Assembly: GCA_950295325.1 (NCBI GenBank)
Contig: OX485805.1
Coordinates: 53,902,758 to 53,966,757 of the forward strand
From: Polytrichum commune
Taxonomy: Eukaryota > Streptophyta > Polytrichopsida > Polytrichales > Polytrichaceae
Length of the DNA stretch: 64,000 nucleotides
Direction of reading: 5' to 3'
Made by a program: the position numbers and the translations under genes. The notes beneath the pieces are model-generated. The model made no database searches. It saw only the letters and a list, made by a program, of their open reading frames with translations, and was not told the origin of the DNA. Shown in pieces: positions 42,961 through 61,670 of this stretch. Every line of letters begins with the position of its first letter. Positions within the stretch are counted from its first letter, which is position 1.

Positions 42961-43790
42961 TCTCAAATCAGCACCTTCACTCCTCAAGGTGGTGCAAAAC
43001 AACTCATAATCTTCAAGAAGTACAACTAAGCTTCTTGGAACCCAAAAGACCTCAAAACACTCAGAATGTTGTAATCTCACAAGTCAGCACCTTTGTGATC
43101 CAATTAGATGCAATATCACTCCTCAACACTTCAAAGAGCTAATCTAAACCCTTTGGCACTCCAATAACTTCAAACTAGTGTAGGAATGAGGCAAACACTC
43201 AAGTCAACACCTAAACGATCGGGATAGATGTAAAATAACTCTTAAATACTTCAAAGAACTAATCTAATCCCTTTGGCACTTCAATAATTTCAAATTAATG
43301 TAAGAATGAAGCAAACACTCAAGTCAACACCTAAATGATCGGAATAGATGCAAAATCACTCCAAAATGCTTCAAAGAGCTAATCTAAATCTTTTGGCACT
43401 CCAATAACTTTAAACTAGTGTAAGAATGAAGCAAACATTCAAGTCAACACCTAAACGATTGGGTTAGATGCAAAATCACTCCAAAACACATCAAAGAGCT
43501 AATCTAAGTCCTTTGACACTCAAATATCTTCAAATTTGTGTAAGAAAGAAGCAAATATTCAAGTCAACACCTAAATAATCCAATTAGATGCAAAATCATT
43601 TCAAAATACTTCAAAGAGCTAATCCAAATCCTTTGGCACTCAAATGTCTTCAAACTTGTGTGAAAATGAAACAAACACTCAAGTCATCACCTAAATGATT
43701 TGATTAGATGCAAAATTACTCCAAAACACATCAAATAACTTATCTAAGTCCTTTGGCACTCAAATGTCCTTCACCCATTCAAAAATGGAT
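42961..43790. repeat. 120-bp tandem repeat array, about 6-7 units
   Basis: Units start AAGTCA.CACCT at 43081, 43201, 43321, 43441, 43561 and 43681, spaced exactly 120 bp, with a weaker unit near 42961. Each contains GCAAAATCACTCCAAAA-, CAAAGAGCTAATCTAA- and CTTTGGCACTC-type words. The array lies between the Copia gag start and its 5' end, i.e. in the leader or LTR region. No frame is conserved across units. Confidence 0.9.
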
Positions 43791-51385: not shown

Positions 51386-54300
51386 ATGGCAAGGGGAAAC
51401 AAACAGCGATTTTTGAGGAGAAAAACAAATCCTGGGGAGTGTTCTACGTCCGTGGAATCTTCATCACGGGCCTCTCGTGACATGCAGTATCCCGCTGGTT
51501 CTGCAGGGGAGTCATCTTCATCGAAGTATAAACCCTATTTTGATACTTCCAAACATGGAGACTCCGGTGACTCCAGCTTTGAAGATGACTATATTAATGG
51601 TAGAAGAGCAGTTGAGTATGAGGATGTTGCTACTTCTGAGGCAGGTACGAGGTAGAGTTGTTTCTGTTCCTGAAGAGATTTTTTTGTGGGTGTGATTGAT
51701 TGCATGATTTCACTCGAGCACTTGTCATTCACTGTACTCTTTTGATCTGATTACAACTAAAGCTTCCTTTCCCATCCTATTATAACTGCTTTCGTGAACG
51801 AAATCATATTCCACTTACCATTGATTTTACTTCACAATGTAGACTTCAGAACTTTAGATCAAAACTCTCTTTCCTGTCCTACTCATGCACAACAACTCCT
51901 GGTTCTTATAGTTTTACTGTTTCTGAATTTCACATTGCAGAATTAGAGGCATATTGCAATGGATCCTGGTGGGATGCAACAGTTCTGAAAAAGGATAGAG
52001 ATCGTTATTTTGTCCATTATGAGAAATTTGATGAAGATCAAGATGAGTGGGTGCCCCTTGGCCATCTTCGACTTCGTTCACGAATTGCAGTTATGGCTGA
52101 TTGTCAGAATGTGCTGGATCCTGGGGTGGACGTGTGCTTGATGTCACATCACCCGCATTCTGACCATTCACATCCAGTACTTCTCTCTCCCTTTGTATAG
52201 CATGTATTTCTGTTTGAAATGATCCATAACTCCTCTTGCACACTACTCAAACATTCAGATGTTGCAGATCATAAGGTCTGCCAGATGTGGCACAAAACTA
52301 CTGTCCCACAAGTTTTGGTTCCAAGTCAAATATTGTTCTCTACCTTAAAGGAAAACATCTTTGACACATTTGTTAGTGAAGTAAGTTGATTTGGCAGGAA
52401 CAGAGGCAGCTCGTCATAGTTTGCACAATTCCAGAAGTTGATACGCTTGAATCACTCAAGTAACCCTAGTCTCAGGGAGGGTGGCATTGATGTAAATCTG
52501 CAATGAATTTCTTGATGAATGACCACAGAAATTAATGGCAGTATTTTGTGACTATTAAAAACTACCTTGTTGCAGTAGTAATAATTTAAATGGCCGTTCT
52601 GCTCCTAGGGGGCACATATATTTCCTTCAGTGGGCATTTGGCCTAACAATGGACTTGTGTGACAGGCATGGTATGATGCAAAAATCATTGATATTGAGAG
52701 AAAGCCCCATACTCCGTGGTCATGCAAGTGCTTGTTTGACATACGACTCTACACCATACCAGATACTCTTCCCAGTGACTACAAACAGAGAAGACTTTTG
52801 CCCATCTATCCAAATAAAATGCGACTGTCGAGTATAAGCATCATAAGAACAGCAAACAACATGTCTTTTCATCAACTAGTAGCAGCTGCTTTGCCTCATG
52901 TGAGCTCTGGAGTCAAGAGAAGGTGGGCAGTAGATGGAACGTTCTGGTATTCTTCCTTCCTAGAAGCAACTACCACATTCAAAGACCACAGCTTCTCCTT
53001 GGAGAGCAGGGTAGCTGGTGGAAGTGAGGTCCCAACGACCACTCTAGGTCACCTTGAGGAAAGTACACCAAAGGTTGTGGAGCTCATGCCCTTTGATGCC
53101 TTTTTGGAGGAGGAAGGCCTCATGGATGATGACTTTAATTTAACTCCTGAAAGAAAATCTGAGGAGGAAGGCTTTATGGATGATGACTTGAATTTAACTC
53201 CTGAAAGAAAACCTGAGGAGGAAGGCTTTATGGAAGATGACTTGAATTTAACTCCTGAAAGAAATCCTGAGGCGGAAGGCCTTGTGGATGACGACTTGAA
53301 TTTAATTCCTGAAAGAAAACCTGAGGAGGAAGGCCTTGTGGATGATGACTTGAATTTAATTCCTGAAAGAAAACCTGAGGAGGAAGGCCTTGTGGATGAT
53401 GACTTGGATTCAATTCCTGAAAGAAAACCTGAAGAGGATGTTATTCCAATATGCGTGCACAGCTCCCCTGTCCAGGTCCCAATAGATCATGCCAAGGTGG
53501 ACCCTGCTGTTTCTGGCTCTAAAACCCAGCCCATTCTTCTGGACTTGGACAATGACACAGACAGTGTTGACATTTCTGACAAAGAAGATACTTCATTTCC
53601 TGTCTTCAGGTTTTTGGATAGGTTTCCAAGTGAGGAGCGGGCCACAAGCCCTGAGAGTGTTGAGGATGATGTTGGGGAAGCGCCAGCGGATATAGGCACG
53701 AGTTCAGAGATTTCAGAAAGTCATAGTGATGAATTGGAAGATATAATTCTGTCTGAGCTCAATACTTCAAATTACAGGGGTCCTCGGCAACTTCCTGCTA
53801 AGTCAGTGTCTTTGGTTAGAGATAAATCAGCATCCTTAACTGCAGGGAAACCGGCTGCCAGAATCTCAAAGTCTGTTGGTCCTTCCATATCATCTGAAAG
53901 CTCTGATCTAGATGATTTTGTGGGATATCTGGAGCGCAATATTGAGGTAAATACTCTGCCTAATCGGGCTTTTCCTTCTACAAAAGCGAAATCAACATCC
54001 AAATTTCCAGCATCTGGTCTGCAGCGACGCACAGGTGCAAAGCCTAGGTTTACCCAAAAATTAATTTCAAAGGGAAATTCAAGGATTGTACCAAAACAGG
54101 TTCCAGTTATTGCAACGCCTCAAAAGGCCCTACGCAGTGCTAGTGTGGAGATTGACAAGCTTGATTCGGGATTGGAAGACTTTGCAGATGAACTACAAAG
54201 TGTTCTTGTTACTGAGGGCCCTGTTGTGCGGGAACTTCTTACTCAGAAAAAAGAAGAAACCAAGGCTGGACATCTGGGCCAGGTTTGAATCTCAATCAAT

Positions 54301-57300
54301 GCTTCACATTGAGTTGGTCTTGCCCAATTTTCTTCTTTTTGTATACTTCAAGCCATATCTACACATCTGGATAGAAATTGCTTCAGAGTCTTTCCCCTAA
54401 ATTTGTTGACAAGAGTGTGTGACATATCTATATTATATGACGTTCTTAACTCAGATCTGTCTATTTGCTTCAAAGGCTATCTATGTGTATTTTCACCCAC
54501 ACTCTTGAGCTCCTTGGACATCCCTGAAATGACAAATAGATAGGGTTTTGGTACTTTTCTAGCTACTGCACAGTTGTGTTGTTTGGAGTTTGTTCTTGAC
54601 ATTTGGAATGCAGTCTGACCTCCTTACAATGCTGGACGTTAAGTAGTTCCCTGGGAGAGGGCTTCCAATTGCAGAAGATAGTGGAATATTTAATATGAAG
54701 CCATATGGAACTGGATAACCAAAGTCCTTGTGTTGTAATAATTCAGGGGTTTCCACCTACGCTAGATGTAGTCAAAGCACTGTAGAAACTCAAGCACTCT
54801 TGTAAATTTCTTGACCATGACCAACAGTGGTACCGTTCTGAATATCATATCCATGTAGTAAAGTAGACATTGAAGCACCAGAAGAATGCGTTTTACGAGC
54901 AGTGAAGCTCAAACAAGTTGAAGAGTTTACAAGCAGCTGGTTTAAGGAATTCCTACATTTGTTCTCACAGAAAACTGGAATATTAAATACTCCTTGATAG
55001 GCCATTTTACAGTTCTTGATGATAGTTGCAGACCAAATTCATGTGCTAGGTTCATTTAGAAAAACCAGTAGTTGAGACAACTGTCATTAAATCTGCTGAT
55101 GTTGTAGAAGTTTCCTTTCCTACCTTTCATTGATTGTTCATCATGCCATTGGAACTATAAATCAAAGCAAGCTCTGTAGGCAGAGAGGTCATAATTATGT
55201 GTTGGTGCTGCACTGTGGTAAAGTCCTGGCAATCATTTCTGAGCTAACTTCTTAGTTTGAAGCAAGTCATTATGGAAGTTTTTCACTCCAGAATTGTCAG
55301 TTGTATACTAACCTGCACTGATCTGTGTTTCCAGTCTTTTGGACGCAAGCCAAAAAGGCCCAGAAATGGTGGAAACATTGGTGAGTTGAAGCGTGCGAAA
55401 GAGGTCACCTATGCAGATTTATTTAAAACTGTGGAAGACAATCCAAAGATTCTACCAGCGCAGAACTACATCAATACTGGGGCATGCCTTTCACCATCAT
55501 GGAATCCTTTGATGGAGTCTTGGGGTTTAGAATCTCAGCAAGAGGTTCAAGAAGACTCTAACCTTGATGATGTCTGGGAGGACATGCGGTTGGCATTGGA
55601 GATTGAAGAGATCGCAGAAGCTAGGAAGGTAGAATGACTTGCCCTTCACAGCTAAGCAAATTACCTAATGTTAGTGATGAACAATGGTCGATCTGCTTTT
55701 CTATGATCCAGCTCAAGTTTTAAGAATACTGCTTACGTAAGTATACAGATGGAATTTGAGAATAGCTGAGTGTTTAATGAAGTTGGCTCCTTGAAACCGA
55801 GGTATTGTAAATTATGGTACATATATTGCTGGAAGGTATGCTATTTGGTTTTGCAGGCTGTTACAATGGACTAAGGTCCAGATCTTATCTGTTCACTTGC
55901 ATTCCTGTTGGCTTGAGTAAAGGTAGCTGAAAAAGGAGAGAAGAGTGCTGCAGCTGTTGGAGAAAGCAACAAGTGCATCAATCCAGATGGAAGCGCAAGT
56001 GAGGAGGATCATGTCTTTGAGTTCAGTCCAGAGGTTGGGCTGGTCTGTGAGATATGTGGCATCGTGGGTTTGGAAATCGAGAACATGTGGGAGCGTGATG
56101 TAAGTCCAACACTTCATATATATTCAGTTATTCTTTCAGTAATTTGTCTAGTACGTACTTTGGTTTGCATTCCTCTTCTTATCAAGTGACTCATACAAAT
56201 CTGGGTTGTCAGTCTCTGGCTGCAGTATAATAGTTGAGATTCAAGATGTTATTGTTGGTACAAACAGGCAGGCTGGGCTATAATGTGCACAAGCTCATTT
56301 TGTACTAGCACTCTGACCCACCATCAACAGCAAAAATGCAGAAGCGGAAGGAATTTTAATTGGTCTTGAGGTGTTTCTTGTCACATGGTGTCTGCGTCTT
56401 CCTAGCTATTCTCATCAACTTCAACGTTTTCTATCATTCCTATCATTTCAACGTTTTTATACTGTCACTTTCATCCAATTAGTAACCTTTAAAATATAAT
56501 AACTTTAAAGTGATGCAATATTGAGTGTCAGAATCTGCTACTTTGGAAATATTGCAATTGAGATTAGAGATGGAGGTGCAATTGTCTCCAACATCAGTTT
56601 CATGGACAATGATGTCTTTCAGGCTCTCCAGCATTTATACACATCAGCACTAGAGCCTCATCCTGCCATGCCTTTGCAATGAAATGAAAGGCTATTAATG
56701 CTTTGACATCTTACATGCTTTAAAGTGCCCATTCAGAAGATAGTATGGGCTAATATGTCTATAAACGGTCCCATCTGTGAACATATCCTACTGTTGTAAG
56801 AGGATGATTTGTTCCTGTGGATCCAGAATGCTAAAAGAATTGCAACAACCAAAGTGGGCAACAGTGAAGAGAGCGGCTCTGATCATGACGGACTGCATTG
56901 GGATTCAGATGAAGAAAATAACATGCGACAGAAGAGTCCTAAGGGAGGTTCTATTTTTGAGTTGATTCCAGATTTGGAGAAACACTTACAAGAACATCAA
57001 AGAGAAGGGTTTCGATTTCTTTGGCGTAATCTTGCTGGAGTGGATCCTGGAGGAAATCCTTGTGTTCCTCCAATGGAACCAGGAGGTTGTGTCCTCTCTC
57101 ATGCTCCAGGCACTGGAAAAAGCTTGCTCATCATTAGTTTCTTGCAGAGCTACATGAAGGTCAGCATTGCAAATCCCACTGATAGTTTTAACATTCTAGA
57201 GAATTTGATATTATTCCTCTTGAGCTCCATAAGGGTAACTTTAGAACCACATCTCATATTCTTATCAATGGGATCCATGCTGATATGGTTGTGCTCATGA

Positions 57301-60300
57301 AGGTGAATCCACAATGTCGGCCACTGATTGTTGCACCAAAAATCATGCTGAAGCCATGGGAAAGAGAGTTTCGGAAATGGAATGTAAATATACCAGTCTT
57401 CAACCTCAACCAGGCCTATGAAGTAGGACGGCAGCTATTTCAACAGCATGAGGAAGCTGGTGATGTGCTGTTGAAGTGTGGAGGGAAGATATCTACTAAG
57501 CGCTTACGCACGTTCCACCGCCAGGTATCAAGATTGGGGCTGCATAGAGACTTGAGATTGTCATTGTGCTGAAATTCTCAATGGATTTTATGTGCATATA
57601 GTTCCCAAATAGAGAGCATATATGGATACTATGCACAAAAAAGCATTTAATCTATGCAATACTTTAGCTTTTCTTATATGGCTTGCCAAAAAGTTGTTGA
57701 TGAGGGACGACTGCTTTCATGATCAACTATGGCATGTCATTAACCTGAAACCCATATGGTTGAAATAAAACACAATACTCCAGAAGGTGTGGTTCTTGGT
57801 AGGTTTTACTTACCTGATAATATTGCAGGCAGTACTGTGGGAATGGACGAAGACACCAAGCGTTCTGGTCATAAGTTATGCAATGTATTCAGGTTTGACA
57901 TATCAATCATCCACCTGTGACGAAAAGTCACAAATCAGAAAGCTACTTCAAGTCCGTCCAAACATTCTTATACTGGATGAGGGTCATTATGTTCGCAACA
58001 AAGACTCTATTATTCGAAGACAGCTTATGACTGTGAAGACCCCACTGAGGATAATGTTGTCAGGCACGTTTCAATTTTCCTTCTGTAGGTATTGTTGGTG
58101 TGTATTTGAACAAAGTTTACCCTTCAGAAAAACTATATCGTTAGTCATCACTTCATGCCACTGCAATGTCTCTTGGATGTGCTCCTTGGGATGTGATTTG
58201 CTCTTGGATGTGATGATCTTGATTAGAATTACATTTTTTAAAGAATTGGGGGCAGTTTTTGCAGGTATTAGATCTATCTTTTTTGCGTGTGATTCATTAG
58301 TTTGGCACCTCGGGTTTCAGTTCCTTTCATCTGACACCTTGCTGTTGTTTATAGGAACATTGTTCCAGAACAACTTTGAGGAGCTTTTCACATCCCTTAA
58401 CCTCGTGCGTACTGGATTTGTGAAGACATTTGCAAAATCAGCTGGCCTTAACTACAACCTTCCGGTAATTTCCTCTGATATTCCAGACCTTTTCCTTTTT
58501 GCTATAACTGAATCAATGGGTGCTAAATTGTATCATTTGATCTTTCTCTACAACTTTGACTGGGCAGAATAGAGTTGAATAAACAGCGGTCTATTTGGAG
58601 AATCGATAATCTATTGAAGATGTGAAAGGATTCCACATCGATTTCACAAGTCGATCAATGAGTTGGTCTTCCTGAAGTCAAGATGTGCTATTTTGAAGCA
58701 TCAACCTTTCATTTCCTTAAACAATTGCATATCACATCATATTTGGTTGTTGGTTTGTTGGTATTAGTATGCGTGCATCAAATACAGTCACATAGAATAT
58801 GCTCACTAATGTAAACTGGGTTCTTCACTTTGGCGATGTTTACTCCTTTCTATCTAAGATATGTGGAAACACAAGCACATTGAAGTGTTACATCCCTCAC
58901 CAGCTGATAGAATTCGCAACAAGAATTGAAGTCTGGAGTAACCCTTTTACGAAAATAATTCTGGCATGACTTTTTGTTGCGGATGACCAATCTATCTACC
59001 CTGTAGGCTTTACTTATATTTGAATATAGTGTTTGAGTGAGCATGTAGTACACAAGGCAGGAAGACATGTATCAGTTGTTTGCCAGGTGACACACAGAAT
59101 GCTTGCTTGAAAGAGAACAGAAGCCCGTCATAAGCACTTTATTATCATATCTGGAGCAAATGGGAAACAAACAATTTAGGGGGATATCTGAAATCAACAG
59201 TAGAGTCACAGCCATGGGAATGCTTATTTCAGATGATATGTGTGATTCTTTGTGAAGTGTTTTGTCTACATGGGGGTTTTCCATGACTAAGTTCGGCTAA
59301 CTGACTGGATGGTGCAGGAATATGAGCCATCTCGTGACCTTGATAAGGGAATGGGCATATCAGCAGCTTTGGAGAAAGCAGCCAAAGCTGAGGAGACTTA
59401 TGCAAGGAAGTTGTTTATTGAAGAGATTGGAAGTAAGATTGACAAAGGCCAGAAATCCCAAGGGTTTACAGAATCCTTGACTCAAGGGCTAGAACAGCTA
59501 CACAGATTGACTAGTCCCTTTGTCAATCATTACACCGGTGGAGTTCTACGGAATCTTCCTCCTCTACGAGACTTTTCCATACTGTTAAAACCAACAGATC
59601 TTCAAGAAAAGATGCTTCAAAAGTTAACAGAAATACTGGTGGGGAAATCAATGCTGGAGCAAGAATGTTTGCTGTCTCTAGTCAGCATCCACCCTTACTT
59701 ATTCTCAACACACACGATAGGAAAGTTAATGGGTGACTTACTATCACCTCAGGTAATGATCAAGTTATTTTCTTACTGTGTACCATCTTGGTTTCTCCTT
59801 GTTTCCTTTGGTAATTGTTTACAGTATCTTTTCCTGCTTCTCTGTGATTCTATGATACCATATTGTATCCAACTAGGCTGGCAGAGGATGCTGCTGTATC
59901 TATTAGTTCTGTTTGGGGCTATGGAGGCAAGTTTGGCAGTCTGCTTGTATCATCATTGGATGATAGTCCATTTGAATCCTTCTAATGTTTACACTGAACA
60001 CCTTACATATACTGCAGGAGATGATGGAAGTGGCTACCAATCAAGACCCACATGTAGGAGTCAAGACACGGTTTATTATTGGCCTTCTGAAGCTTTTGAA
60101 GGCTGGGAGCGAGAAGGTACTTGTTTTCAGTCAAAATCTAGACCCTCTGTTACTTTTAGAAAGGATGCTAAACAAGGAATTCGGGTGGGTTCAAGACCGA
60201 GAATTTCTACAACTGGATGGGAAGGTCCCAATGAATGAGAGGCAAAGCATTATTCAGCGGTACAATGATCCTAAAGGACGAGTTCGGGTCTTGCTAGCAT

Positions 60301-61670
60301 CAACAAAAGCTTGTGGGGAGGGTATTACTCTCACTGGTGCTTCCCGGGTTATTTTCATGGACGTCCTTTGGAATCCTGCAGTAATCAGACAGGCCATCCA
60401 TCGTGCATTTCGAATTGGACAAACCAAGATTGTGCATGTGTATCGACTTATTTCTTCAGGTAAATGCACCCGACATAAAATATCATATTGTCTTACCTTT
60501 CCATTATATCCTGCTCCCCTCCTCTTAGTATCTCCATTAGCACACTCACTCGCTTTGTAGCTCTATTGTATGTAGACTTTTTCTTTCATTCTCCCCTGCT
60601 TATCATTTGCTGAACCCTTAATGGTCCAACATTCCCATTATGGGCCTCAAGGTGTCATATGGAGGAGTTTGCGCTTACTTCTCTATATGTTTAGCTGAAA
60701 GTATCCAAAGTGACCCTATTTATAATGACACCATTAATTATAGGCATTATTCCAACTGGACCACATGTATGTGTAGATTTGATTATAGGTGTATTTACAC
60801 TTGTATGAATGACCCATACTCAAATACTTACCATGTATATTCAATCACCATTGTCACATATGACCTTGTTCTCACTTCCTCGTTTTTAATATATTGTGCT
60901 AAATATAGATTAGTATCATAGACCGAATGAGATATTATTTTAATCTTTGTTTGGGATTTGTGCAATTTGTCACGTATTCTGTATAAGCACACTCCCGGTC
61001 ATGTAAGGATTTACTGCATATGAATTCCTACCTAAGATCACCTCACTGCATGATCTTGCTGGTCCTACAGCATTTGGTGTTGATTGAACATCCCCCACTC
61101 ATGTTCTCCAAGGAGACCTCTAAGTGCATATGCTTTTCAGGTACCTTTGAAGAGGCGAAGTACCGCAAAATGGTCTGGAAGGATTGGAAATCTCAAGCTA
61201 TTTTCAACATATCAGCTGAAAACTCAGAGCAAGTGAAAAATAAGGTGAAAGAATCACGGGGGGCTCCCCAGCATTGCTTCTGGGAAATAATGGATAAAGA
61301 TAAAGTGAAATTACATACCAAGGACACTCTTCTTAAAGAGCTCTTCCGACAGGACATATCATCAGACTTACCAGCATTCAGACATGTATTCAGGCATGGG
61401 GGTTTATTTGATGAGGACTATTCCAATGAACCCGAAGACAAAGGCGAGGATGCAACAGATTGGTTACGTGGAGGTGCAGGGGCTGATTCTATTGATCTTG
61501 ATGCATATGATTTTGGTGCTGATGCTGACAACGATGACTGTGACAATCTTGAGGAGGAAGATCTTTTGATACAACCTCCTCCTTCTCGCAGAACCTCATT
61601 GAGTGCTTTTGAGAAGGCACTTCGACTTCAAATGGGAGAGAGTGCCTTGAAAATGAAAATAACATCATAA
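51386..61670 (+). CDS. CLSY-like: CLASSY-like SNF2 chromatin remodeler, twelve exons
   Basis: Nuclear SNF2 ATPase of the plant CLASSY/DRD1 group; Arabidopsis CLSY proteins guide RNA polymerase IV in RNA-directed DNA methylation. Exons: 51386-51644, 51941-52194, 52666-54282, 55335-55628, 55923-56099, 56827-57159, 57303-57524, 57829-58063, 58355-58464, 59318-59752, 60018-60459, 61141-61670; phases agree and give 1,635 residues. An in-frame TGA at 51362 supports the start. A Tudor-like stretch (CNGSWWDATVL..VHYEKFDEDQDEWVPL) and a second WYDAKIIDIERKPH segment lead. A repeat array (residues 319-426) follows, then a CxxC element (GLVCEICG), motif I HAPGTGKS (about 959-966), motif II DEGH (about 1102), LSGT, and motif VI QAIHRAFRIGQ (about 1437). 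The 177-residue C-terminal exon ends very acidic. Exon edges 2-3 are the least certain. It is longer than Arabidopsis CLSYs (about 1,100-1,400). Confidence 0.82.
53107..53430 (+). repeat. In-frame 54-bp repeats encoding six 18-residue EAR-like units
   Basis: Six uninterrupted units starting at 53107, 53161, 53215, 53269, 53323 and 53377, each of the type EEEGLVDDDLNLIPERKP. Cores are DFNLTP, DLNLTP, DLNLTP, DLNLIP, DLNLIP and DLDSIP. Four match the EAR motif DLNxxP, which binds TOPLESS co-repressors. Outer units have drifted most. The array lies in exon 3 of the CLASSY-like gene, between the Tudor-like N-terminus and the helicase. Confidence 0.9.
58064..58354 (+). other. Probable GC-AG intron in the SNF2 gene
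   Basis: To keep the conserved LSGTLFQNNF reading frame, exon 8 must end TTGTCAG and exon 9 begin GAACATTG. The intron then starts GCACGT and ends TATAG. GC donors with a CAG before them are the main non-canonical class in plants. Using the GT three bases further on would break the frame. Confidence 0.65.

Follow-up and report, generated by a model that had tools for sequence, protein, structure and literature searches.

Six acidic tandem repeats in a probable CLASSY orthologue of the moss Polytrichum commune: a coding minisatellite or an array of EAR motifs?

Does an array of six acidic repeats inside a CLASSY-like remodeler of the moss Polytrichum commune constitute a working co-repressor signal, or is it a piece of coding DNA that has multiplied in a tolerant linker? 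The question arises from a 64,000-nucleotide stretch of DNA (the window), located on contig C3 of a genome that was searched as 407.8 Mb in 64 contigs. The original prediction, made on this stretch, read the repeats as EAR motifs recruiting TOPLESS, and mentioned as an alternative an acidic minisatellite with a chance match to the motif. It is this alternative that we prefer, given the pattern of changes among the units, the rate of chance matches and the greater likeness of nearer units: the array is probably a coding minisatellite, situated in the acidic linker that separates SAWADEE from the helicase part in a moss CLASSY orthologue. The features on which the argument draws are the following.

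51386-61670, + strand: CLASSY-like gene, 12 coding exons, 1629 aa; spliced open reading frame with one terminal stop
51386-51644, 51941-52176, 52666-54282, 55335-55628, 55923-56099, 56827-57159, 57303-57524, 57829-58063, 58355-58464, 59318-59752, 60018-60459, 61141-61670, + strand: exons 1 to 12 of the CLASSY-like gene
51952-52176, + strand: SAWADEE domain, first part (exon 2); Pfam PF16719, E=1.1e-6 for the exon 2 frame alone
52666-52749, + strand: remainder of the SAWADEE domain, at the start of exon 3, including the H...CxC positions; Pfam, and for H...CxC the alignment to PDB chain 7ef1_A
53107-53430, + strand: six 54-bp (18-aa) in-frame tandem repeats, acidic, residues 313-420 of the modelled protein; Tandem Repeats Finder and codon table
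56827-58464, + strand: exons 6-9, N-lobe of the SNF2 helicase, carrying the motifs GTGK and DEGH; PF00176 matches to the frames of exons 6-8, and the protein
60018-60459, + strand: helicase C-lobe (exon 11); PF00271, E=1e-19, and SNF2-family chains in PDB

The gene model was placed by hand on open reading frames, a start codon and splice sites, and was built from genomic sequence alone. Ten of its introns are of the GT-AG type and one is GC-AG; the latter is the best reading of the intron after exon 8 (58063/58355), which falls within an LSGTLFQNN motif. At the N-terminus, the SAWADEE domain is interrupted by an intron, and joining exons 2 and 3 raises the PF16719 match to E=6.3e-15 and 55.8 bits against a cut-off of 28, which places the domain in the SAWADEE family. 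The original prediction had set the repeats between Tudor-like and helicase parts of the protein; their placement stands, and the Tudor-like label gives way to SAWADEE once the two exons are joined. A search of the genome with the SAWADEE profile listed two other places (three exon matches) and not the present gene, in which an intron divides the domain. On the helicase side, PF00176 matches the frames of exon 6 (E=0.075), exon 7 (3.5e-4) and exon 8 (2.4e-7), with the cut-off of 24.9 bits exceeded in exon 8 only (30.6 bits). The protein possesses both the SNF2 N-lobe and the helicase C-lobe expected of a member of the CLSY/DRD1 subfamily.

SAWADEE is a histone-reading module best known from SHH1, a partner of CLASSY. 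Among PDB chains, the domain found here is closest to those described as 'HB transcription factor' (7ef1 and others, E about 1e-5), sharing H...CxC with 7ef1_A in the printed alignment, and it also matches the SAWADEE chains of SHH1 (4iup, 4iuq and others) at E of about 0.009-0.012. In SHH1 the module is combined with a homeodomain (PMC3141008), whereas here it is combined with an SNF2 motor.

Kinship to the CLASSY proteins is evident from Arabidopsis CLSY1 (At3g42670), with identities of 35% on the helicase side (769 aa) and 33% for the N-terminal domain (107 aa, E=1e-16), both measured against a reference sequence that is not a database record. Arabidopsis CLASSY1 is not known to carry a DLNxxP array. 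Its gene differs in structure, with 5 exons and 1257 aa, as listed in a CLSY survey (PMC12389316), against 12 exons and 1629 aa here. The survey describes a closer counterpart in the moss Physcomitrium patens, Pp3c25_10710V3.1, the only CLSY that it counts for this species; the gene has 12 exons, and its 1534-aa protein combines SAWADEE with the SNF2 parts (PMC12389316). The two moss genes differ in length, and agree in exon number and in the SAWADEE/SNF2 architecture; the gene studied here is thus of the same kind. With the array collapsed to a single unit our protein would measure 1539 aa, and this is compatible, given the 1534 aa reported for the P. patens protein (PMC12389316), with there being no array in P. 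patens, even if a near-equal length can also come from compensating insertions and deletions. The SNF2 lobes, the SAWADEE domain, the 12 exons and the likeness to CLSY1 all bear out the initial assignment of the gene as CLASSY-like, and it is probably, judging by its predicted protein, a moss CLASSY orthologue that carries a SAWADEE domain. The presence of SAWADEE in a probable moss CLASSY is the more solid point to emerge from the locus, and this architecture is already in print: the survey (PMC12389316) reports it for the Physcomitrium CLSY and for one soybean CLSY.

The array itself lies in exon 3. Tandem Repeats Finder, run on the window, reports it at 53107-53438 with a period of 54, 6.1 copies, 93% match and 0% indels, and with the codon table this agrees with the six in-frame 18-residue repeats originally described. 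Units 1 to 6 translate as EEEGLMDDDFNLTPERKS, EEEGFMDDDLNLTPERKP, EEEGFMEDDLNLTPERNP, EAEGLVDDDLNLIPERKP, EEEGLVDDDLNLIPERKP and EEEGLVDDDLDSIPERKP, each rich in D and E, so that the acidic residues recur periodically. Two blocks can be told apart in the codon table, units 1-3 with M...T and units 4-6 with V...I, and the similarity of units rises with their proximity in the array (Spearman 0.53, p 0.04, for 15 pairs that are not independent). The proximity effect and the two blocks are therefore as in stepwise tandem duplication. Head-to-tail order, a unit length divisible by three, freedom from indels and the likeness of nearer units are, in combination, the marks of a coding minisatellite. 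An open frame of 145 aa crosses the whole array on the opposite strand; we regard it as a probable side effect of the repetition.

Before the array is given any meaning, it must be asked whether it is an artefact of assembly, or part of a dead copy of the gene. Such a reading draws on two partial copies on contig C2, which cover the gene's middle portion and are 80-89% similar, but the twelve exons join in one frame of 1629 aa with usable splice sites, and the units differ pairwise by 2-7 bases. Moreover, the C2 copies match the window only from 54084 and 54206 onward, that is, downstream of the array, and the helicase-C exon has no close second copy, the next best match to it in the genome standing at 46%. 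Intact frame, differing units, position of the C2 copies and lack of a close second helicase-C copy rule against both forms of the idea, which we regard as hardly credible.

A further reading takes the repeats for EAR motifs. Of the two EAR consensus patterns, LxLxL and DLNxxP, the first is absent from the 1629-aa protein, and the second is matched literally in units 2-5, as DLNLTP or DLNLIP, just as the original prediction had counted; the corresponding residues of unit 1, DFNLTP, and of unit 6, DLDSIP, do not fit. Under this reading, the DLNL[T/I]P copies would bind TOPLESS, most likely at its C-terminal WD40 part, and a Pol IV guide protein would thereby deliver TOPLESS, along with histone deacetylases, to the sites that it targets. 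If so, a single protein would link two silencing routes of plants, RNA-directed DNA methylation and repression through TOPLESS and histone deacetylases. The same hexapeptide pattern is found in known EAR-motif repressors, among them ERF and C2H2 factors and the fungal effector Jsi1; they differ from the present case in that this protein is not a transcription factor and its putative motif sits in a diverging tandem array. Apart from the four literal matches, the reading can point to a TOPLESS-family domain (PF21889) in the same genome, at one place with three exon matches (C1:34420330-34421464), and to Jsi1, which depends critically on one DLNxxP to bind TOPLESS (PMC8126959).

The same study also bears on where such a motif would dock. 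It states that proteins with LxLxL engage TOPLESS at its N-terminal part and those with DLNxxP at its C-terminal part, and it assigns the contact with Jsi1 to the second WD40 domain (PMC8126959). Docking in the TOPLESS CTLH groove, as originally proposed, conflicts with this study, and the CTLH-groove model is therefore, along with the avidity argument built on it, unfit for this class of motif. Binding of the array to TOPLESS by way of the WD40 part is possible. CLASSY is absent from all 6 papers that contain three of the four terms EAR motif, DLNxxP, chromatin remodeler and CLASSY, and the one paper that brings together CLASSY, Pol IV and TOPLESS names CLASSY and TOPLESS in unrelated places. 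Nor does the available text of a CLSY-docking paper (PMC11603163) contain a match for EAR motif or TOPLESS. The claim that no CLASSY protein is known with an EAR array accords with searches of an open-access library with few subscription papers, in which we found no CLASSY EAR motif.

How surprising is a DLNxxP match in the first place? In 20,000 shuffles of the protein, with the array counted as one origin because its copies are not independent, DLNxxP turned up in 2.1%, and DLNx(x)P or LxLxL, either EAR consensus, in 73%. A chance of 2.1% is low for one protein taken alone. In a proteome that numbers tens of thousands of proteins, by our estimate, hundreds of chance DLNxxP matches are to be expected, and this base rate counts against reading function into a single origin of the motif. 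For rice, one publication credits 266 transcription factors and regulators with DLNxxP or its modifications (PMC6479872).

Selection among the units offers a more direct view. To relate the six units takes at least 12 base changes, of which 9 are private, each to a single unit, and 3 are shared; by the codon table 10 are replacements and 2 are silent. Nei-Gojobori estimates among the units are dN 0.099 and dS 0.068, a dN/dS of 1.45. With 10.2 silent sites in the 54 of each unit, an absence of constraint predicts 2.3 silent changes, and 2 are observed. The probability of two or fewer silent changes is 0.60 at an omega of 1, 0.21 at 0.5, 0.05 at 0.3 and 0.01 at 0.2, the units being treated in the count as independent, which tandem copies are not. 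Strong purifying selection on the units is thus disfavoured; weak selection (omega 0.5, p = 0.21) is compatible with the data, 12 changes giving little power. The hexapeptide core, on one third of the unit length, has taken 4 of the 12 changes, all of them replacements, at L, N, L and T/I, and is as variable as the rest of the unit. Its D and P, residues D9 and P14 of the unit, are invariant across all six units, a point against the minisatellite reading. At this low power, neither the units nor their core bear a sign of purifying selection, and the change pattern is that expected without constraint. A working EAR array, as originally claimed, finds no support in these figures.

The prediction had also described drifted outer and intact inner units, and had seen in them a recently expanded, kept core. 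This description holds for the six-residue core and fails over whole units, where private base changes in units 1-6 number 3, 0, 2, 2, 0 and 2. Within the core, 3 of the 5 private changes of the outer units fall there, against none of the 4 in the inner units, a difference that does not reach significance (one-sided Fisher p = 0.12) and so does not establish a kept core. Confinement of core changes to the outer units is nevertheless the main, if weak, hint in favour of selection, and belongs on the credit side of the EAR reading. Weighing this against the change pattern, the base rate and the docking-site literature, we do not adopt the EAR array as best explanation and judge it very unlikely. 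In its fullest form, one moss lineage would have gained a CLASSY with a multivalent DLNxxP array that recruits TOPLESS through its WD40 part; Pol IV guidance would then be physically tied to histone deacetylation, and evolution could tune the link through the number of repeats. To this scenario, built on the predicted protein, we attach very little credence.

A different function may be sought in the acidity of the array. The units could form an array of other acidic linear motifs, such as a tract that binds histones or another partner, or a row of proline-directed kinase sites, with copy number setting the affinity. Periodic D/E-rich units would suit such a role, and TPER in units 1, 2 and 3 fits [ST]P.[KR], the pattern of a proline-directed kinase site. 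T is replaced by I in units 4-6, however, leaving half of the units without a site, which is why the kinase array was rejected, and the change pattern, which is as expected without constraint, tells against any motif of this kind. A reading of the array as acidic motifs is unlikely.

Returning to the coding minisatellite, its history can be sketched as follows. A 54-bp stretch would have been multiplied by unequal exchange or slippage; given a unit length divisible by three and a linker tolerant of changes in length, the frame would have survived. The DLNL[T/I]P match presumably arose once, in the founder unit, and was then copied. In a linker that is presumably disordered, the array is probably no more than an acidic spacer, and the protein would do ordinary CLASSY work, with the SAWADEE domain reading histone tails and the SNF2 part serving recruitment of Pol IV. 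On such an account, the locus mainly illustrates how, through tandem repetition, a single chance match of six residues comes to look like a striking 'array'.

Several related loci were encountered in the same genome. Searches with exon 3 returned three matches each, out of 7 candidates scored for the protein and 3 for the DNA, these being the gene itself and the two partial copies on C2 (C2:11021274-11021515 and C2:68098976-68099098). The latter cover the gene, together with its introns, from the later part of exon 3 as far as intron 5, one having been followed only to the end of its locus; the exon 3 frame is shifted in one of the two, and they look like decayed segmental duplicates. The helicase-C exon matched 23 places out of 38 candidates scored. 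The next best of these, at 46%, is a DRD1/CLSY-like SNF2 gene that is present twice on C2 (C2:48901082-48901546 and C2:48999724-49000188), the two copies being separated by 98.6 kb and sharing 99.6% identity over 7.9 kb, representing either a recent duplication or an assembly duplicate. This gene (at 48.90 and 49.00 Mb) is 35% identical over 604 aa to the CLASSY-like protein, could be a DRD1 counterpart, and has no DLNxxP in the stretches scanned. As evidence of conservation these copies are uninformative on the array, since the partial copies start past it and the DRD1-like gene lacks the motif where scanned. DUF3223, which we take to be a domain of the kind found in the C-termini of the largest subunits of Pol IV and Pol V, has 9 exon matches in the genome. 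A light-harvesting protein encoded in this genome finds its best matches among single-domain PDB chains in 8htu_U and 7xqp_a, which belong to Physcomitrium entries, though the multi-domain chain 9vfj_2 has a higher summed score; with the SAWADEE-CLSY architecture of 12 exons, this points to a moss. The window holds another tandem repeat at 43080-43765, with a 120-bp unit in 5.7 copies (also scored as 240 bp in 2.9 copies), and elsewhere in the genome 14 equal-scoring matches to light-harvesting chlorophyll-binding proteins are clustered within about 95 kb (C5:1751760-1846160).
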